In this document: one piece after another, positions 899-20,150 of the stretch
Layout: every line of letters begins with the position of its first letter
How positions within the stretch are numbered: position 1 is the first letter of the stretch
Translations under genes and position numbers: made by a program
The notes under the pieces: model-generated
Database searches by the model: none
What the model was told of the DNA's origin: nothing
What the model saw: the letters and a program-made list of their open reading frames with translations, nothing else
From: Myxococcales bacterium
Lineage (GTDB): Bacteria > Myxococcota_A > Polyangia > GCA-2747355
Length of the DNA: 32,539 bases
NCBI GenBank assembly: GCA_020431405.1
Contig: JAGQIK010000547.1
Coordinates: forward strand, 1-32,539
Direction: 5' to 3'

Positions 899-910
899 CT
901 ACTTCCAGCG
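899..910. repeat. Left attachment core (attL)
   Basis: The 12-bp core CTACTTCCAGCG is identical to 9901-9912. It lies between the SIS gene stop (895) and the integrase gene, whose stop is at 990. The flanking bases differ on both sides of the two copies, which is what site-specific recombination leaves. The 79 bp between core and integrase stop contain a short inverted repeat (GTGG at 930-933, CCAC at 941-944), a possible arm-type site. Confidence 0.8.
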
Positions 911-989: not shown

Positions 990-2066
990 CTAGGAAGGCG
1001 TACCAAGCAACACGGCGCCGGCGGCCCGGTCGTCGCGGGCGTGGCGTGCGTCGTCGCGGACGTAGAACGTGCGCGTGGTCGTCACGTCGCCATGTCCGAG
1101 CGCCTGGCTCACCGCGCGATCAGCGACGCCCTGCTCTACCGCCAGCGTGCCGTAGGTGCGGCGCAGCGCCTGGATCGTCAGCGGCGCAACGCTCGCCTCG
1201 CGACAGATGCCCGCGTACACCTCGCGCAGCCACTTGCGCGCCATGTCGAGGTGATTGAGCCGCTCGACGTCACGGCCGAGCAGCGGCGCGTGCGGATCAT
1301 CGCTGACGAGCGCGGCGACGCGCGGGCGCAGCTCGTCAGCGAGCACTACGGAGCGCAGGCGCATCGCGTTCTTGACCTTGCTCCAGACGTTCAGCACGCG
1401 GCCGCCATCGTCGACGTCAGCCACGGTGCGGCGCAGCACCTCGTGTGAGCTGAGGCCGTGGCGCAGGCACAGCAGCACGCCTGTCACGCCCGCAGCCCCG
1501 AGCGGCGCCTCGAGGCCAACGCGGTAAAGGCGGCGCGCATCGTCGCGACGGTGCGCCGCCTTGGAGCGACGACCGGGTGCCTCGACGTCCGACAGCGCAT
1601 CGAGGCACATTTCGAGTGCCGCGTGGCTGATCATGCGCTTCTTGCGCAGAAAGCGAACGAAGGTTCGCACGGCCCGCGCGTTGCTGTGCAGCGTGCTCGT
1701 CGCCACTTCGCCGCGACGCTTGTCGACGAGCTTGGGCAGCACGCGCGGCAACGACGCCAGCGTGGTGTCGAGCCCGAGAAACATGCGCATCTCGAGGCGC
1801 CGCATCACCAACGTGCTCTCAGCGCGACCCTTGCGCTCGAGGTCGGCCATCCACGCATCGAGGGCGCTGGCCACGTTAGGTGCATTCTCGAGGACACCAG
1901 CGGCGATCTGTTGGCGCGCGTGCTCTAGCCCCGATTGGGCTTCTTGCTCTGTCTCAAAGTAGACAGTGCGCTGTCCACCTTCGCCGTCGTAGATGACGAC
2001 GCGCCAGCGGTCGCGCGCTTTGAAGTAGTACGGGCCTCGGGCCCGGGGGCCGGTCTGTCGTGCCAT
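990..2066 (-). CDS. Tyrosine recombinase/integrase
   Basis: This 358-residue protein has the layout of phage-type integrases. An N-terminal arm-binding-like part (about 10-55, with a PYYFKARDRWRV strand) is followed by a SAM-like core-binding domain (about 63-145) and a catalytic domain (about 165-345). Visible catalytic residues are Arg202 (LCLRHGLSSHEVL), a beta-hairpin Lys230 or Lys232, Arg302, His325 (ALGHGD) and the nucleophile Tyr335 (TRTFYV). The usual HxxR box reads Q-A-L-R at 299-302, so the His is Gln. The ATG at 2066 is preceded by GGGAG at a good spacing. The gene is the last of a leftward operon and ends 80 bp from the left att core, the usual place for an element's integrase. 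It should catalyse integration into, and with a directionality factor excision from, the permease gene end. Confidence 0.93.
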   Translation of the reverse strand: MARQTGPRARGPYYFKARDRWRVVIYDGEGGQRTVYFETEQEAQSGLEHARQQIAAGVLENAPNVASALDAWMADLERKGRAESTLVMRRLEMRMFLGLDTTLASLPRVLPKLVDKRRGEVATSTLHSNARAVRTFVRFLRKKRMISHAALEMCLDALSDVEAPGRRSKAAHRRDDARRLYRVGLEAPLGAAGVTGVLLCLRHGLSSHEVLRRTVADVDDGGRVLNVWSKVKNAMRLRSVVLADELRPRVAALVSDDPHAPLLGRDVERLNHLDMARKWLREVYAGICREASVAPLTIQALRRTYGTLAVEQGVADRAVSQALGHGDVTTTRTFYVRDDARHARDDRAAGAVLLGTPS

Positions 2067-2197: not shown

Positions 2198-2439
2198 CTG
2201 ACGGCTCCGCTGTAGTAGGGGCTGGCCTTCGGCGGCTTGCCGGGGTTGTCCTCGCTCCACCGTCCGTCGAGGCTGCGGCGCACGTCGCGGATCAGGTTTG
2301 CGGCTTGGCAGCAGCGCATCGCGTCGGCAGCGCGCTCGCTCTGCGACGGCAGCACGTGCAGCAGCTGGTCGAGGGCATCGAGCGCAGCGGCGCAGCGCGC
2401 GGCCGCCTCGCCATGATCGACCCAGTGGGCGCGGCTCAC
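2194..2439 (-). CDS. Small helical protein of unknown function
   Basis: This 81-residue protein (starts MSRAHWVDHGEAAARCA) is predicted mostly helical over residues 8-60 and contains a Cys pair (RCCQAANLI). Its ATG overlaps the stop of the TSCPD gene (ATGA at 2436-2439) and its own stop overlaps the next ATG (2194-2197), so it is translationally coupled within the rep-TSCPD-integrase operon. No family is recognised. Confidence 0.65.
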   Translation of the reverse strand: MSRAHWVDHGEAAARCAAALDALDQLLHVLPSQSERAADAMRCCQAANLIRDVRRSLDGRWSEDNPGKPPKASPYYSGAVR

Positions 2440-2855
2440 GGCTGCGCCCCGACGCCGTCGAGGGTAGGTGCCGGCGGCGTGTCAGCGGATCGAGGGGGGC
2501 TGCAGCGGGCCTCGACGAGCTCGAGCCACTGCGCCAGGTGGTCGAGCACCGACGACACGCGCGGGATGTCCGCGTCGCCCGTGAGCCCATCCGGGCCGAA
2601 CCGACTGTGACGAAACTTGCTGAGCACCGCACCGATCGGCACATCGTGCTGCAGCGCCACCGACAGTGCGATGCACAGCCCGTCGACCAAGCCGCGCTCG
2701 AGATCGCCGCAGCGCCCAAGCCGAGCGAAGATCTCGCGGACGCGGCCGCGCTCGTCGAGGCTGCAGCTCCATGTCACCTCGAGGTCGGGCAGCTCGAGGG
2801 TGCGCGTGTAGCCGGCGCGCAGCGGCGCGAGGCGAGTTCTGATCGGTGCGTTCAT
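2436..2855 (-). CDS. Free-standing TSCPD-domain protein (ribonucleotide reductase C-terminal-like)
   Basis: The 139-residue protein starts at ATG 2855 (MNAPIRTR), with AGGA upstream; the longer open frame to 3242 is only shadow of the upstream gene. Residues about 18-110 match the TSCPD region found at the C-terminus of B12-dependent (class II) ribonucleotide reductases: a beta strand LPDLEVTWSC, then a helix with DLERGLVDGLCIALSVALQ, then GLTGDADIPRVSSVLDHL and a final QWLEL, like the G-x-T-G-x-x-x-I-P...S-I-x-D-Y...W-L pattern. No catalytic barrel is present, so it cannot be a reductase by itself. Free-standing copies are known from phage genomes, where they are often annotated as reductase. 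A role in binding or tuning host reductase is inference. Confidence 0.75.
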   Translation of the reverse strand: MNAPIRTRLAPLRAGYTRTLELPDLEVTWSCSLDERGRVREIFARLGRCGDLERGLVDGLCIALSVALQHDVPIGAVLSKFRHSRFGPDGLTGDADIPRVSSVLDHLAQWLELVEARCSPPRSADTPPAPTLDGVGAQP

Positions 2856-2865
2856 GGTCGTCCTT

Positions 2866-3954
2866 TCAGCGCCGGCGGCGCTCTTTGCGGGTGCGCCGTT
2901 GCTCGGCTTCCAGCTTGGCGTTGAGCTCGGCGAGCACTTCAGGGGTGGCAAGCGCGCCGAGCTCGCGCTGCGCACGTGCAAGCTCGCGCTGTCGCCCCTT
3001 CGCCCACGACGCCGCGCCGGCGCTGAAGCGATGCAGCTTGCCGTCGACGCGCGTGACGATGTTCGGGCCCTGTCGGCGCCACCGGATCGGCGACAGCGCT
3101 GATTCAGCCTTGCCGTCTTCAGCCCCTCCCGAGCGTTCGTGGTGCGCACGTGGCGGCTGTTGGTCTGGGGACTGCGCGGGCTGATGACGCGATAGGTTCG
3201 CGTTGCTCTCAGTGCTGAGATCAGACCCGGAAGAAGAAACACACGGGGCGGTGCTTGCGCCGCCCCCGCGCCCCGCAGGGGCGCCGCGTCCCGGGCTAGG
3301 GACGCCAGGCCCGACGTGGCCTACCGACGTCGGGGAAGCTTGCGCACCAGGTTGGTCGACATTTGCGGGCTGCGATCGGTTCTCGGCGCCCGTTACATCG
3401 TTCCTTGTTACTGTCCTATTTGCGCACGCAGAATCGTCGTGAATAGGACAACGGTTCGGCGATTCTGACGGCAAAACGGACGTCCGTTTTGCGCACTCAA
3501 CGTCTCCAGAATCGTCGTGAATAGGACGACGGTCCGGCTCCGGCGGCACCTCTGCGGGGCGCCTGCACTTGCCGCGCGCACGGTAGTCGGCGCCGGCCCT
3601 CAGCTCCCAAATCTCGTAGCGCGGATGGCACTTCTTGAACTCCCCCACGCGCAGCAGCCAGCCCGCGGCGAGCAGCTTGTTCAACGCGCGAGTCACGGTC
3701 GTGTGGGCGACGCCTGCCACCTTGGCGAGGCGCTCGCGACCGATGCACACCTGCCCCGACCGTAGGTTGAAGCGCGTGCGGCAGCGCGGGTTCTTGCACT
3801 GCCAGGTGTACTCGCTTCGCACGCTGATCGTGACGAGCGCGAGCATCACGAGTCGATCACCAAGCTTGAGCTCCTGATAGAGCTCGCTCTCGAAAAGCTG
3901 CTCGCTGGCGACCGCGTAGGAACGCAGTTTCTTGCGATGTCTGCTACCGTTCAT
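2866..3954 (-). CDS. Replication initiator-like protein, winged-helix N-terminus (lambda O-like layout)
   Basis: This 362-residue protein begins with a short basic tail (MNGSRHRKKLRSYAV). Residues about 22-115 form a winged helix: LGDRLVMLALVTISV, a Cys pair at 53 and 58, then an HTH with RLAKVAGVAHTTVTRALNKLLAAGWLLRV and a wing strand (HPRYEIWELRA). Residues about 125-290 are a Pro/Ser/Arg-rich linker without apparent fold, and 295-362 are basic and helical (WAKGRQRELARAQREL), ending KERRRR. The linker coding region contains the repeat and palindrome cluster at 3413-3527. This arrangement (N-terminal origin-binding domain, iterons inside the gene, C-terminal partner-binding part) is that of lambda O-type initiators. 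It heads the leftward operon with the TSCPD gene, two small ORFs and the integrase. A plain transcription factor is the alternative. Confidence 0.65.
   Translation of the reverse strand: MNGSRHRKKLRSYAVASEQLFESELYQELKLGDRLVMLALVTISVRSEYTWQCKNPRCRTRFNLRSGQVCIGRERLAKVAGVAHTTVTRALNKLLAAGWLLRVGEFKKCHPRYEIWELRAGADYRARGKCRRPAEVPPEPDRRPIHDDSGDVECAKRTSVLPSESPNRCPIHDDSACANRTVTRNDVTGAENRSQPANVDQPGAQASPTSVGHVGPGVPSPGRGAPAGRGGGASTAPCVSSSGSDLSTESNANLSRHQPAQSPDQQPPRAHHERSGGAEDGKAESALSPIRWRRQGPNIVTRVDGKLHRFSAGAASWAKGRQRELARAQRELGALATPEVLAELNAKLEAEQRRTRKERRRR
3413..3527. repeat. Iteron-like direct repeats plus 22-bp perfect palindrome; candidate replication origin
   Basis: A 21-bp sequence beginning CAGAATCGTCG and ending AATAGGAC is exact at 3429-3449 and 3507-3527. 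Both copies are followed by nACGGTnCGGC. TTTGCGCAC precedes each copy (3419-3427 and 3488-3496). The octamer also occurs inverted (GTCCTATT, 3413-3420) and CGATTCTG (3460-3467) is an inverted piece of the repeat. Between the copies lies a perfect palindrome with arms GCAAAACGGAC and GTCCGTTTTGC (3471-3492). The patch is visibly less GC-rich than the gene around it and lies within the initiator-like gene, encoding PIHDDS twice. Confidence 0.65.
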
Positions 3955-4012
3955 GGAGCATCTGCCCTCGAACGCCGCGCATCGCCCCCGCAGGCCGCGC
4001 GGCGTTCGTCTT

Positions 4013-4228
4013 TCAGCCCACCGTCGCCTCGGGCGCGTTGTCGCCCGCGAGCCACGCCTCGAGGGCGCGCACGCCGATCAGCCACCTGCGGCCAACGCGG
4101 CGCGCAGGGACGCGGCCAGACTGCACGAGCCGGTACGCGTGCTCTCGCGACAGGCCGGTGGCTTGCGCAAACTCGAGCACGCTCAGCGCCAGCCTGTCCG
4201 GCTTTTTGTTCTCATCGGTCGTTTTCAT
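4013..4228 (-). CDS. Excisionase-like helix-turn-helix protein
   Basis: A 71-residue DNA-binding protein of the small winged-HTH (excisionase/AlpA-type) group. The motif runs from about residue 15: LSVLEFAQATGLSREHAYRLVQSGRVPARRVGRRWLI, with the characteristic short wing ending in an aromatic and a following helix (ALEAWLAG). GGAGG nine bases before the ATG at 4228 supports this start. It lies upstream of the initiator operon and divergent from the rightward gene at 4271, so it may be the recombination directionality factor, a regulator of the divergent promoters, or both. The ten bases GGGGGGTATT lie 65 bp upstream of its ATG, as they do for the other HTH gene of the element. Confidence 0.75.
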   Translation of the reverse strand: MKTTDENKKPDRLALSVLEFAQATGLSREHAYRLVQSGRVPARRVGRRWLIGVRALEAWLAGDNAPEATVG

Positions 4229-4270: not shown

Positions 4271-5050
4271 GTGGCCCGACTAGACGCCATAAAATACCCC
4301 CCATTTAATGGGCATCCGCTCGCGCTGCTCGAAGTCGTGCGCGGCAACAGCGACGCGCACCACCGCGGGGTGTTGCGACTGCAGGGCCGTGAGGACTTCG
4401 CAGCCGGAGATCCGGGCGTGCCTCGGGTCTCTCGCAGCAAGGCGCCGCGCTACTTCGTCAAGCCGCTGGGCCGATTCCTGGAGTGCGAGTGCTGCGGTCT
4501 GTCGCTGGACATGCGCCTACCGCGTGCGCGTCTCGACGAGCCTCCGAGGCGCGCTACGCCCGCCGACGCCGTTCGCGAAGCGCTGCTCTACCTGCAGCGC
4601 GGCGCCGATCTCGCGCGAGAGGTCGAGCAGCTGCACCAGGCTCGTGATGACGTTGCCGCTGTAGCCGCGCGGCTCGAGGCACAGCACAGCGAGTCGGCGG
4701 CGAGGGTCCGCAGCCTCGGCGTCGAGCCGTTCTCACAGTCGGGGGCAAGCACGAGCGCCGAGATCTTGCGGCGCACGGTGCGTCAGCTCGAAGTGCAGGC
4801 AAAGAACCTCTGCCCCTGGCGCGGTGTGAAGCCGCTGCGAGCGCCGACAGGTCGCGGTCGGCCTGGCGCGCCGTGGATAGCCGATCTGTCGCTGTTCCTG
4901 CAGTCGCGCGGGCTCGGCGAAAGCGCGCGGTTTGACGTTCTGGCCAGCCTGAAGCGCGCTCACAGCCCGTGGCTCGACGCGCTGTCAGCAGATCATCGCG
5001 CCCTCGCGAAGCGGGTCGGAGAAGCCGTCAGGCGGCGAGCAGCGTCTTGA
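4271..5050 (+). CDS. Unknown protein, only rightward gene of the element
   Basis: The 259-residue frame starts at GTG 4271, the only in-frame start near the 5' end (an in-frame TGA lies at 4244-4246); GGAGG is only one base before the GTG, so the start is not well supported. The first dozen codons are less G/C-ending than the rest. A short segment with a CECCGL motif (CxxC-like, possibly metal-binding) lies near residue 75. The middle (about 100-160) is helical and charged, and the C-terminal part contains GRGRPGAPW. No family is recognised. It is divergent from the excisionase-like gene and its last 23 bp overlap the end of the convergent sigma gene. Confidence 0.55.
   Translation: MARLDAIKYPPFNGHPLALLEVVRGNSDAHHRGVLRLQGREDFAAGDPGVPRVSRSKAPRYFVKPLGRFLECECCGLSLDMRLPRARLDEPPRRATPADAVREALLYLQRGADLAREVEQLHQARDDVAAVAARLEAQHSESAARVRSLGVEPFSQSGASTSAEILRRTVRQLEVQAKNLCPWRGVKPLRAPTGRGRPGAPWIADLSLFLQSRGLGESARFDVLASLKRAHSPWLDALSADHRALAKRVGEAVRRRAAS
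4293..4302 (-). promoter_or_regulatory. Shared upstream motif, copy 1 (GGGGGGTATT on minus strand)
   Basis: GGGGGGTATT, read leftward, starts a segment that ends 64 bp before the ATG (4228) of one excisionase-like HTH gene. The same decamer lies 65 bp before the ATG (7697) of the second HTH gene. Candidate operator or promoter element. It falls inside the first codons of the rightward gene if that gene really starts at 4271. Confidence 0.35.
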
Positions 5051-5663
5051 GCGTGTCCAGCGCGTCGGATCGCAGCTGCTGCGCCCTAGAGCCGCTGATG
5101 CCCCACGCCTTGCCGATCTCGCCGAGCTTGACGCCGCCGTTGCCGTCGAGACCGTACGAGCGCACGACGATGTCGCGCTCGCGCTCGGGCAGCGCGGCCA
5201 CCGCCTGGCGCAGCCTCGCCACGTCGCGCATCGAGTCGACGGCAGCTGCGAGGTCGGGCTCACCGGGCTCGATGACATCGGCGAGACGTACCTCGCCGGG
5301 CTCGGCCCACGTGCGCATCGTCAGCGGCACGTGTGCCGCAGCACGCTCGGCCTTGTCGCGTGCGCGCGAGACGGCGGTGAAGAGGCCGTAGCTCGCGTAC
5401 GTGGACAGCGCGCCTCGAGCCGGATCGTAGCGCTCGACGGCAACGCACAGCGCCACCGCCGCCTCTTGTTCGAGCTCGTCGAGGCCGATGCGCCCCTCGG
5501 CGATGGCGCGGCCAGCGCAGCGCCAGACGATGCGGCGCGCGAGACGCAGGTTGCCCGCGACCATGCGCTGCTGCAGACGCCGTGCGCGCGCATTGTCGCC
5601 GGCGGCGCGTGCTGCGTCGCGATCGCGGGCGAGGTTGGTGTTGTCGGCCGCCGAGAGCGCCAC
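5028..5663 (-). CDS. Sigma-70-family RNA polymerase sigma factor (element-encoded)
   Basis: The 211-residue protein starts at GTG 5663. Region 2 is clear at about residues 35-105: NLRLARRIVWR, then GLDELEQEAAVALCVAVERYDPARG and LSTYASYGLFTAVSRA, the usual D-L-x-Q-E-G...Y-D...G-x-F-x-T-Y-A-x-x-x-I pattern with L for I at its end. Region 4 is at about 145-205: LPERERDIVVRSYGLDG and the HTH LGEIGKAWGISGSRAQQLRSDAL. Region 1.1 is absent and region 3 is short. It ends the leftward operon 7697-5028 and overlaps the rightward gene tail by 23 bp. It could redirect host polymerase to element promoters; which ones is unknown. Confidence 0.88.
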   Translation of the reverse strand: MALSAADNTNLARDRDAARAAGDNARARRLQQRMVAGNLRLARRIVWRCAGRAIAEGRIGLDELEQEAAVALCVAVERYDPARGALSTYASYGLFTAVSRARDKAERAAAHVPLTMRTWAEPGEVRLADVIEPGEPDLAAAVDSMRDVARLRQAVAALPERERDIVVRSYGLDGNGGVKLGEIGKAWGISGSRAQQLRSDALDTLKTLLAA

Positions 5664-6895: not shown

Positions 6896-7476
6896 GCCTT
6901 GCCTCGCAGCGCGCGCCAGGCTCGGCGCAGCCAGCTACCCCGCGTCTCGCCCTCGGGAACCTTGACGATGGTGCCGGTGGTGCCGACAACACGACGCTCG
7001 GGCATTCGAGGCCCGTCCGGATCGACGCCCATGCGCCGAGCGACCTTGGCGCGCAGGGCGCGCACGCGTTGCTCGTGCGGCGTGCGCAGCTGGCCTCGCG
7101 TGCGGCCGCTCGGATACGTGACCACGCCGTTGCTGTACATCGTCGGCCCGCGCGCGCCGACGCGCCCCAGCGGGGCCATGAAGGCGCAGAACGCCTCGCG
7201 CTCGGCGTGCACGGCCGGCGCGTCCGCGGCGGCGAGGCGCTCCACCTCGGCGACGAGCTCGGCCACGTCGTCAGGCTCGAGATCGGCGCGCGGGCCTTCG
7301 GCGACGGGTCGCCACTTCGGGGGCAGCTCGGCGATACGCGCGTCCAGGTTGCGGTTGAGCAGGTCGAGCCGGCGCGCCTCGCGGTCAACGAGCGCTTGGA
7401 CGGCGTCGGGCTGCTCGGCGCCCGGACGGCGCTGGCCAGCGAGCTCGTACTCGTACTCGAGGTCCGTGCGCGCCAT
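6892..7476 (-). CDS. Unknown protein
   Basis: A 194-residue protein (starts MARTDLEYEYELAGQRRPG). The first 100 residues are helical and acidic; the second half has a Gly/Tyr-rich segment (PTMYSNGVVTYPSGRTRGQL), a basic helix (RVRALRAKVARRMGVD) and a basic tail (WLRRAWRALRGKA). Its ATG overlaps the HTH gene stop as TGATG (7474-7478). It belongs to the operon ending with the sigma factor. No family is recognised. Confidence 0.6.
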   Translation of the reverse strand: MARTDLEYEYELAGQRRPGAEQPDAVQALVDREARRLDLLNRNLDARIAELPPKWRPVAEGPRADLEPDDVAELVAEVERLAAADAPAVHAEREAFCAFMAPLGRVGARGPTMYSNGVVTYPSGRTRGQLRTPHEQRVRALRAKVARRMGVDPDGPRMPERRVVGTTGTIVKVPEGETRGSWLRRAWRALRGKA

Positions 7477-7697
7477 CAGGCGGCCTCGCTCACGTCGAGC
7501 AGCCGCCGCAGCTCCGCGATCGGGATGACCACGCGGCTGCGCAGCTTGACGGCCCGCAGCTCGCCGTCGCTGATCATGCGCAGGACGGTCCCGCGGCTCA
7601 CCGCAAGCGCCTCAGCGGCGCCGTCGATGGTGGTCGCGCGCGGCAACTCGTCGCGCCAGGCTCCTACGTCGTGCTGCGTGTCGCTGTTGTCGGCCAT
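7476..7697 (-). CDS. Second excisionase-like HTH protein, first gene of the sigma operon
   Basis: A small HTH protein: a polar tail of about 25 residues, then TIDGAAEALAVSRGTVLRMISDGELRAVKLRSRVVIPIAELRRLL, the short winged HTH of excisionase-type DNA-binding proteins. I prefer ATG 7697 (73 residues); a GTG at 7724 would add nine residues but lies in the inverted repeat at 7703-7722. Neither start has a strong ribosome-binding site. It heads a six-gene leftward operon ending in the sigma factor, so a role as operon regulator is plausible; a directionality factor for the integrase is the alternative. Confidence 0.75.
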   Translation of the reverse strand: MADNSDTQHDVGAWRDELPRATTIDGAAEALAVSRGTVLRMISDGELRAVKLRSRVVIPIAELRRLLDVSEAA

Positions 7698-7702
7698 GCA
7701 GA

Positions 7703-7722
7703 GCAGTGTATCGCTGCACTGC
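7703..7722. promoter_or_regulatory. Inverted repeat upstream of the HTH gene, candidate operator
   Basis: GCAGTG (7703-7708), eight bases, CACTGC (7717-7722): a perfect 6-bp dyad five bases before the ATG at 7697. A position between promoter and start codon suits an operator, possibly for autoregulation by the HTH protein. No protein has been shown to bind it. Confidence 0.4.
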
Positions 7723-7762
7723 ACACAGGCGAGCTGACTGTATAGCGTTTCTTTCGGGGCTT

Positions 7763-9900: not shown

Positions 9901-9912
9901 CTACTTCCAGCG
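9901..9912. repeat. Right attachment core (attR), inside the permease 3' end
   Basis: CTACTTCCAGCG, identical to 899-910. On the minus strand it reads CGC TGG AAG TAG, the last three codons and stop of the permease. The gene end is thus retained at the right junction. Confidence 0.8.
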
Positions 9913-12746: not shown

Positions 12747-13523
12747 TCAGGCGTAAGACAGCACGAGCCCCTGCGCGAGCAGGACCCAGCCATCGACCAA
12801 CACGAACAGCAGCAGCTTGAACGGCAGCGAGACCGTAGTCGGCGAGAGCATATGCATGCCGAGCGCGAGCAGCACATTGCCCACTACGAGGTCGATGATC
12901 AGAAACGGCACGAAGATCAGAAAGCCGATCTGGAAGGCTAGCGCCAGCTGGCCGACGACAAAGGCGGGCACTACCACCAGCAGATCCTTGTCGCCGACGA
13001 GGTGTGGCTTCTTGCCGGGCCTTTTCCACATGCGGCGCGCGAGGTCGCGAAACATCGCGCGATCAGCCTGGCGGCTGTGTTTGACGAGAAACGCGCGCAC
13101 TGGCTCCTTGGCCGCGCTGGCGGCGGCGAGGATCGAGCGCGCTGACTCGGCGGAGATGAAGTCGACCTTCTTCGCTGGCGCGCCGCCCGCGGGTCGCTGC
13201 TGCTTCTGGATGGCGTCGTACGCGTCGCTCGCGGTGGGCGCCATGACGTAGATGCTGAGCACCACGGCCAGCCCCGTGATGACCATCGACGGCGGCACCT
13301 GCGGCGTGCCGATAGCGTTGCGCAGGATCGACAGCACGACGGCGATCTTGACGAAGCTGGTGATCATCACCAGCACGAAGGGCAGGATCGAGAGCGCCGC
13401 GAGCAGCAGCAACACCGTCACCGGACGGGACCCGAGGCCGCCGCCTCCCGCCGCCCCTTGCGCCTCCGCGAGGCGCGGCGCGAGCGCCAGCAGCAGCGCG
13501 GCGAGCACACCGAAGCTACGCAC
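12747..13523 (-). CDS. fliP: Type III export gate protein FliP/SctR
   Basis: I place the start at GTG 13523 (258 residues), with GAGG seven bases upstream; this gives a clean signal peptide (RSFGVLAALLLALAPRLAEA), as in many FliP proteins, whereas the longer frame begins in fliO shadow. Segments follow in family order: TVLLLLAALSILPFVLVMITSFVKI, VVLSILRNAIGTPQVPP, a soluble part, then AFQIGFLIFVPFLIIDLVV, NVLLALGMHMLSPTTVSLP and LLLFVLVDGWVLL. The GMHMLSPTT and VGNVLLALGM wording is somewhat closer to SctR than to classic FliP, so a non-flagellar system cannot be excluded. It overlaps fliO by 8 bp. Confidence 0.92.
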   Translation of the reverse strand: MRSFGVLAALLLALAPRLAEAQGAAGGGGLGSRPVTVLLLLAALSILPFVLVMITSFVKIAVVLSILRNAIGTPQVPPSMVITGLAVVLSIYVMAPTASDAYDAIQKQQRPAGGAPAKKVDFISAESARSILAAASAAKEPVRAFLVKHSRQADRAMFRDLARRMWKRPGKKPHLVGDKDLLVVVPAFVVGQLALAFQIGFLIFVPFLIIDLVVGNVLLALGMHMLSPTTVSLPFKLLLFVLVDGWVLLAQGLVLSYA

Positions 13524-15201: not shown

Positions 15202-16632
15202 CTACTCCTCGAAATCGCTCGCCTTGCGCGGCAGGATCTTGAAGTTGTCGAACGAGTAGTGCAGCACGCCGGTGATCGACTTGTACATCTTGCCAGCCGC
15301 CGGTGGGTTGGTGGCGAAGTCGTAGAGGTCCGCGTCGACATGCAGGTTGGAGGTCTTGAGCTTGATACCAACAACCTTGCCCTTGCTGTCCTTCACCGAT
15401 TCGAGCACCTCGGCGTTGGTGATCTTGACCAGCACGCCCTCGAACTTCTCGGCGTCGGCGCCGTTGGTGGCGATGGTCGAGGCGTCGGCGATGTCCTCGG
15501 GCGTCGGCGCCGTCTGGTCGGCGACCTTGGTCCAGGTCACACCCTTGATCTGCGACACGCCGAAGTACTCGTCGTAGGTTCCAGTGATCTCGTAGGTCTC
15601 ACCTTCGACCGGCTTGATCGCGCTCTGGTCGTCCCAGCTGTGGAAGATCTGGATGCCGCTGAAGGCGCCCTGTCCGTCCTGCACCCAGAAGCCGTAGTAA
15701 CGCGGCGTGGTGCCGCTGAGCCGTCCGTCGACCGCGGTCACGGTGCCCGTGAACTTGACCAGGTCGCCCTTGGTCGGGTGATTGGCCGCCGCGTCATCCT
15801 GGATGTCCTTGATCGTCAGCGCGGTGGGCTGCTTGCAACTCGTCGAGGCGACGATGTCTTTGTCCGAGCGTGGCTGCAGCCGATAGGCGTAGAAGTAGAG
15901 CGAGATGCCGGTGACGCTGACGCAGTCGCCCACTGTCGGCGTGTGCTCGTAGAGATCGTTGCCGATGTCGAGGCCGCCCTCGACCTTCCACTCGCCATAC
16001 TGCGGGTCCTTGCCCTCGGTGACGCGCACGTCCTTGACGGTGACGAGCACGCCCTCCCAGCCCTCGGCGTCGGGATCGTCGGTCAGCTCCGTGGCTGCGA
16101 CCTCTGCCGGCGCCGGCACGGTGTCGCTCTTGATGAACGTCAGCTTGGCGTTGTCGATCTCTTTGATGTGCGTCTTGTTGGGGTGGCGCGTGTCATTGAA
16201 GCCGCCCGACGGCGAGAAGTACTTCACCTCGCCCTCGATGTCGACGACATCGCCGGGCTTGAGGTCGGCGAGGTTGCCGCCGTCGATACGCTGCGCGCGG
16301 AAGAGCTTGATGCCGCTGCCCTTGCCGCCCTTGGGGTCTTGAACGTAGATGTCGTCCTTGGGATCGCCGAAGGCGTCGATGGCCGTGATGACGACGCCCT
16401 TGATCAGCACCTTGCTGCCTTCGGAGACCGAGCCGTCGGTGACCTTGAAGATCGTCGTCTCGCCCACCGGACCGACCGCGTCGCCGCCGCCGTCACCGGT
16501 GCCGGTCCCGGCCTCCGGGTTGGGCCCACCATCGCTGTTCTTGTCGCTGCTCTTGCAGCCGCTAGACAAGACGCCGAACAGGGCGAGCGCGCTGCACAGC
16601 GCGACGATCGAGAAAAGACGCGAAGCTCTCAT
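15202..16632 (-). CDS. Lipoprotein with repeated OB-fold-like beta domains
   Basis: A 476-residue exported protein. The signal peptide (RLFSIVALCSALALFGVLSSGC) ends in a relaxed lipobox with Cys26, followed by a flexible Gly/Asp/Asn-rich tether (SDKNSDGGPNPEAGTG). The rest is beta-rich and repetitive: segments such as VLIKGVVITAI...DIYVQDP...GSGIKLF, VKFTGTVTAV...YYGFWVQDGQGAFSGIQIF and closing strands VTGISLYFYAYRLQPRSDKDI and ITGVLHYSFDNFKILPRKASDF show at least two related OB-like halves. Similar domains accompany secreted nucleases in Bacteroidota and others, but no nuclease domain is present here. Location is probably the outer membrane. Confidence 0.75.
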   Translation of the reverse strand: MRASRLFSIVALCSALALFGVLSSGCKSSDKNSDGGPNPEAGTGTGDGGGDAVGPVGETTIFKVTDGSVSEGSKVLIKGVVITAIDAFGDPKDDIYVQDPKGGKGSGIKLFRAQRIDGGNLADLKPGDVVDIEGEVKYFSPSGGFNDTRHPNKTHIKEIDNAKLTFIKSDTVPAPAEVAATELTDDPDAEGWEGVLVTVKDVRVTEGKDPQYGEWKVEGGLDIGNDLYEHTPTVGDCVSVTGISLYFYAYRLQPRSDKDIVASTSCKQPTALTIKDIQDDAAANHPTKGDLVKFTGTVTAVDGRLSGTTPRYYGFWVQDGQGAFSGIQIFHSWDDQSAIKPVEGETYEITGTYDEYFGVSQIKGVTWTKVADQTAPTPEDIADASTIATNGADAEKFEGVLVKITNAEVLESVKDSKGKVVGIKLKTSNLHVDADLYDFATNPPAAGKMYKSITGVLHYSFDNFKILPRKASDFEE

Positions 16633-20080: not shown

Positions 20081-20148
20081 TGACCATTCGACCGCGTCAG
20101 CGGTCGAATCTATCTGACCATTCGACCGCGTCAGCGGTCGAATCTATC
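20081..20148. repeat. Two tandem 34-bp units, each a 10-bp hairpin (type B), between rpsK and rpoA
   Basis: Each 34-bp unit contains ATTCGACCGC, loop GTCA, GCGGTCGAAT, with copies at 20086-20109 and 20120-20143. The second unit ends two bases before the rpsK stop. In the minus-strand transcript the hairpins read with a TGAC loop. A diverged relative lies at 20944-20967. The remaining spacer to rpoA has only a small dyad GCTAC TAA GTAGC near 20032 and the rpoA ribosome-binding site. Confidence 0.85.
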
Positions 20149-20150
20149 TG

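Follow-up and report, generated by a model that had tools for sequence, protein, structure and literature searches.

The DNA examined here contains a 115-bp array of repeated and inverted boxes in the middle of an initiator-like gene, which belongs to a putative small integrative element with integrase and excisionase genes, in a genome that looks myxobacterium-like by its size and gene content. We consider it probable that this array is the in-gene origin of the element, bound by the winged-helix-like product of the very gene that carries it. The features of the array, the gene and its neighbours are collected in Table 1; 'the window' refers throughout to the whole stretch of DNA that was analysed (32,539 nt).

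The array resolves into two kinds of box: five A boxes of 11 bp, present in both orientations and sharing the consensus GTCC(T/G)(A/T)TT(T/C)(G/A)C, i.e. GTCCKWTTYRC, and three B boxes. They are laid out as two A> B> A< units with an inverted B< A< pair between them. The preliminary description had pointed to two exact 21-bp repeats 78 bp apart, each with a conserved sequence in front and a near-conserved tail behind, and to an inverted partial copy and a perfect 22-bp palindrome in a less GC-rich patch; all of these are indeed present. The repeat, CAGAATCGTCGTGAATAGGAC, is found on the + strand at 3429-3449 and 3507-3527 (start-to-start 78 bp; 94% identity between the two copies when extended to 32 bp), with the tails CAACGGTTCGGC and CGACGGTCCGGC behind it. 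Both copies have TTTGCGCAC on their 5' side, but at a gap of 1 nt in one (3419-3427) and of 10 nt in the other (3488-3496), which gives repeat units of 37 and 46 bp, respectively. At 3460-3467, the inverted partial copy CGATTCTG forms the second B box. The palindrome, GCAAAACGGACGTCCGTTTTGC at 3471-3492, lies between the repeats, consists of boxes A3 and A4 placed back to back, and is the longest in the window, the next measuring 16 bp. The GC content of 3413-3527 is 0.53, compared to 0.67 for the whole window.

Table 1. Coordinates of the array, of the gene that contains it and of the surrounding element (positions in the window)
Feature	Position	Strand	Details
Candidate array in initiator-like gene	3413-3527		115 bp; codons 143-181 of the 362-codon minus-strand gene 2866-3954
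Unit 1	3413-3449		37 bp; GTCCTATTTGCGCAC-GCAGAATCGTC-GTGAATAGGAC; inverted boxes around CAGAATCG
Unit 2	3482-3527		46 bp, 9 bp longer than unit 1; GTCCGTTTTGCGCAC-...-CAGAATCGTC-GTGAATAGGAC
Box A copy 1	3413-3423	+	GTCCTATTTGC
Box A copy 2	3439-3449	-	GTCCTATTCAC
Box A copy 3	3471-3481	-	GTCCGTTTTGC
Box A copy 4	3482-3492	+	GTCCGTTTTGC
Box A copy 5	3517-3527	-	GTCCTATTCAC
Box B copy 1	3429-3436	+	CAGAATCG
Box B copy 2	3460-3467	-	CGATTCTG
Box B copy 3	3507-3514	+	CAGAATCG
Lowest-GC 60-bp stretch of the element, candidate unwinding region	3392-3451		GC 0.45; overlaps unit 1 and extends beyond it in gene direction
Initiator-like gene	2866-3954	-	362 aa; ORF and translation
Initiator-like protein, regions			winged-helix-like ~1-118; low-complexity linker ~119-280; short basic C-terminal part
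Tyrosine integrase	990-2066	-	PF00589 E 1e-8; PHROG integrase E 1.8e-22
TSCPD-domain protein	2436-2855	-	directly downstream of initiator-like gene; PF12637 E 3.5e-9
Excisionase/AlpA-like HTH_17 protein	4013-4228	-	71 aa; directly upstream of initiator-like gene; PF12728 E 8e-11; PHROG excisionases
Divergent orphan	4271-5050
Sigma-factor-like protein inside the mobile region	5028-5663		PHROG 351 E 1e-25
Second excisionase-like HTH protein of the element	7476-7724
Possible left attachment site (tentative)	899-910	+	CTACTTCCAGCG; 12-bp direct repeat with 9901-9912
Possible right attachment site (tentative)	9901-9912	+	holds the stop codon of the ABC-2 transporter ORF

The array exceeds what chance produces. 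In second-order Markov copies of the window (n=20), the longest nearby exact repeat was 18 bp, compared to the 21 bp observed, while the length of the 22-bp palindrome was also reached in one of the 20 sequences. When the gene itself was shuffled with its codons preserved (n=300), repeats grew to at most 17 bp and palindrome arms to at most 9, with no shuffle reaching either the 21-bp repeat or the 11-bp arms. The repeat is also the longest close repeat within any listed gene of the window. Outside the listed genes, just upstream of rpoA, a 36-bp sequence (TGACCATTCGACCGCGTCAGCGGTCGAATCTATCTG) occurs in tandem at a 34-bp offset (20081-20150). Genome-wide, 5 of the 51 matches to the box A motif in 11.2 Mb fall within these 115 bp, a fraction that shows clustering and is no independent discovery, since the motif was derived from the array's own sites. 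Both of the genome's occurrences of the two-part unit TTTGCGCAC-N(4-30)-GTGAATAGGAC lie in the array, and a search of 240 further genomes of the class gave none; likewise, a DNA search with the 21-mer and a 20-mer of it gave no match outside this genome. Since the genome holds a single copy of the array, an origin from a MITE-like mobile repeat was rejected.

The spacing of 78 bp corresponds to exactly 26 codons, so that the repeats lie in frame and encode a peptide repeat, PIHDDS...CA(K/N)RT. For this reason we considered a peptide duplication as an alternative, and with it the reading that the array arose by chance or by a recent in-frame tandem duplication within an unconstrained linker, where duplications are tolerated and the DNA would have no function. 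Several observations speak instead for constraint on the DNA. The two 32-bp copies differ at two positions, both of them non-synonymous (D/N, R/C), with no synonymous differences. Three of the eight boxes are oriented opposite to their fellows, so no shared peptide accounts for them, and neither inverted boxes nor a 22-bp palindrome would be produced by tandem duplication or be expected under selection on a peptide. Codon shuffles fall short of both repeat and palindrome, and the loss of coding bias coincides exactly with the array: third-codon-position GC drops to 0.46 over codons 141-179, below every other one of 6082 39-codon windows from 29 contig genes (the minimum of the next-lowest gene is 0.59), whereas outside the array the same gene has values of 0.85 in its N-terminal part and 0.82 in its C-terminal part. 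The array is thus a property of the DNA rather than of the protein, and we regard chance or a functionless duplication as distinctly unlikely.

Folding of the coding strand as RNA was unremarkable (z -2.0). As single-stranded DNA, the + strand would form two adjacent hairpins (z -3.5) that none of 200 shuffles equalled in stability, as might suit some other DNA-processing site that a helper element reads, be it for transfer, for packaging or as a folded single-strand origin. Such sites are usually intergenic, however, palindromic binding boxes fold in this way anyway, and neither a relaxase nor a terminase was recognised in the element with Pfam or PHROG; we therefore think a site of this kind very improbable here.

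The position of the array within the gene was compared to lambda O and seven diverse phage O genes, using a blind scan for the 115-bp window richest in 7-mer pairs, direct or inverted, scored as z against codon shuffles. In the eight O genes the peak lies at 0.40-0.50 of gene length with z from 5.2 to 23.8, and in lambda O most of the annotated iterons (nt 349-433) fall within the peak window (nt 313-427). In the initiator-like gene the scan peaked exactly on the array, at 0.44 of the gene, with z 6.8 and none of 200 shuffles reaching it (in an earlier version that also counted overlapping pairs, 1 of 300 shuffles reached the observed value). Among 25 other genes of the window, two scored above z 3, with peaks close to the 3' end (0.81 and 0.91) and not mid-gene. 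The dense cluster at 0.81 is that of a lipoprotein-like gene (DUF5689, 15202-16632) and probably reflects a peptide or low-complexity repeat; its z of 7.8 means that the scan statistic by itself is no proof.

A low-GC stretch accompanies the array, as it does in the O genes. The lowest-GC 45-mer of the initiator-like gene begins at gene nt 510 (3401-3445), at 0.47 of the gene, and overlaps the last unit, while that of the O genes begins at 0.47-0.54, just past the array. The drop in GC at this 45-mer is 0.22 here and 0.17-0.27 in the O genes (lambda 0.24, PHB10 0.21, MPK9 0.20).

The protein itself is harder to place. Pfam and NCBIfam gave sub-threshold helix-turn-helix matches alone, with weak ones at residues 64-119; no curated initiator family was found in Pfam up to E 1, Phage_rep_O and the RepA_N domain included, or in NCBIfam, BLASTP gave no match to lambda O, and the PDB held no sequence match. 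The best PHROG matches were replication initiation O-like (E 0.0035, covering the helix-turn-helix region only) and replication initiation protein (0.0056), with a DnaD-like loader ranking fourth (E 0.015) and matches to initiation or loader families spanning E 0.0035 to 0.09. When the protein was aligned by hhalign to a profile of the eight O proteins, residues 52-118 matched O columns 50-116 (E 1.8e-4, Prob 49), a match that we downgraded and that does not establish membership in the O family, since a GntR-family control scored about equally (E 2.2e-4; other helix-turn-helix proteins 8e-4 to 0.6). The alignment fits a winged helix of suitable position and length. An AlphaFold model of the N-terminal domain, made without an alignment, was uninformative (pLDDT 41). 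By sequence the protein could not be assigned to the lambda O family, the similarity being that of a generic winged helix, and its identity as a replication initiator is suggested by weak winged-helix matches together with layout and context.

A generic helix-turn-helix resembling those of MarR, GntR and Crp regulators is in fact the sole recognisable feature of the protein, and typical operators consist of inverted boxes. The array might then be an operator, at which a winged-helix regulator controls its own operon or neighbouring genes, and no origin at all. Yet it lies about 430 bp inside the gene, away from the promoter, its position and low-GC flank match those of initiator genes, and a regulator has no need of such a flank; we judge an operator unlikely, if still worth keeping in mind. 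In the intergenic region between the excisionase-like and initiator-like genes there is a perfect 12-bp inverted repeat, CGAACGCCGCGC/GCGCGGCGTTCG (3969-4008).

The neighbouring genes suggest an integrative element. The genes for the integrase, the TSCPD-domain protein, the initiator-like protein and the AlpA/excisionase-like protein all lie on one strand, and downstream of the initiator-like gene come in turn the TSCPD gene, a small ORF and the integrase gene. Relatives of the sigma-like protein in other genomes resemble ordinary host sigma factors. Beyond the second excisionase-like gene and several orphans the window continues with chromosomal genes (ABC-2 transporter, Fli export genes, rpoA, ribosomal proteins). 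The 12-bp direct repeat CTACTTCCAGCG is possibly attL/attR of an element of about 9.0 kb; these boundaries are tentative, since chance alone should yield a 12-bp match somewhere in a search of this kind, and relatives showed no empty integration site. With Pfam or PHROG, neither a helicase or its loader nor a primase was recognised in the element. The element contains no DnaA box (the window has one relaxed-consensus match, at 13022), and GC skew, which the preliminary description had proposed as a check, shows no switch within it. Elsewhere in the genome (C543, 540-884), a further TSCPD-domain sequence, 42% identical to that of the element, lies in an open frame of 299 codons, with no element recognised around it.

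We found no orthologue of the protein in 193 relatives, 379 genomes of the phylum, contigs of 84,980 species, viral contigs, phages or plasmids. Matches from the protein searches were generic helix-turn-helix proteins (a GntR aminotransferase, an ArsR fusion) or spurious, and a search of the relatives with PHROG 345 returned mostly LexA- and ArsR-like proteins. Related integrases occur widely among the relatives (61 of 193 genomes), and 52 integrase neighbourhoods held neither a relative of the initiator nor a comparable in-gene array. One family of the class carries about 9-10 related tyrosine integrases per genome (G013, G021, G037, G065; for example L046, L047, L049 and L056), possibly a large and little-described set of integrative elements.

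Returning to the in-gene origin, we can present a rough proposal for how it might work, largely by analogy with initiators that carry their own binding sites. The 115-bp array would be the initiator-binding part of the origin, carried within the coding sequence of its own initiator. Once the integrase and the AlpA-like protein had excised the element, replication would begin with the N-terminal winged-helix domain binding the inverted box-A/box-B units as dimers, and the bound complex could then strain or open the less GC-rich stretch that overlaps the last unit and extends past it in gene direction. The protein segment encoded by the array would serve as a tolerant linker. Since no loader was recognised in the element, helicase loading would have to be supplied by the C-terminal part or by the host; the C-terminal part may recruit host helicase loading, and this step is the weakest part of the model.

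The preliminary description had likened the gene to lambda-type initiators. The layout stands (array at 0.44, low-GC stretch at 0.47, a winged-helix-like N-terminal region to about residue 118, adjoining integrase and excisionase genes), and the initiator identity is suggested by this layout, the context and weak winged-helix matches (best PHROG E 0.0035). Probably we are looking at a distant, hitherto unrecognised example of the known lambda arrangement, in which an initiator gene carries its own start site. A bolder proposal, which we hold to be conceivable but less likely than not, is that a little-sampled myxobacterial lineage has integrative elements with a new family of initiators, with opposite boxes around a 22-bp palindrome and no element-encoded helicase loader, whose in-gene origin either evolved independently or was kept beyond sequence recognition. 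If the array is an origin, the in-gene origin of lambda and of RepA_N plasmids would recur in an unrelated-looking initiator from a myxobacterial integrative element, and a winged helix, an array in the linker and a low-GC flank would amount to a recurring solution. Such a layout could be searched for on its own, by codon-shuffle scan, where sequence homology fails, and the element would be a candidate replicon for a group in which genetic tools are scarce.

Three known systems invite comparison. The lambda origin lies inside gene O and consists of iterons and an AT-rich stretch (PMC3349717), where O dimers form the O-some (PMC3985674). As in lambda O, the putative N-terminal winged-helix-like domain would end near residue 116-118, a repeat array occupies the middle of the gene (0.44 here, 0.41 in lambda) and encodes the linker, a low-GC stretch, milder here, lies beside the array on the downstream side, and the element has an integrase and an excisionase. 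Unlike in lambda, where there are four direct 18-bp iterons, the boxes here are of mixed orientation in 37- and 46-bp units, the protein shows generic helix-turn-helix similarity only and no BLASTP match to O, and no P, DnaC or DnaB gene adjoins the initiator-like gene. Rep of pSK41, a RepA_N protein, uses its N-terminal 120 residues to bind four mid-rep boxes, and what the origin encodes is a linker (PMC5703833). An N-terminal domain of about 120 residues, the mid-gene boxes and the origin-encoded linker would all have counterparts here, but the protein lacks a RepA_N Pfam match, and RepA_N initiators belong to theta plasmids of Gram-positive bacteria and not to integrative elements. Finally, phage-inducible chromosomal islands (PICIs) of the EcCICFT073 type are likewise small integrated elements with int and an alpA-like gene. 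Their origins, however, follow directly on the 3' side of a pri-rep gene of primase type and have an AT-rich region between two iteron sets (PMC6092414), whereas the array described here is inside the gene of an element with no recognised primase.
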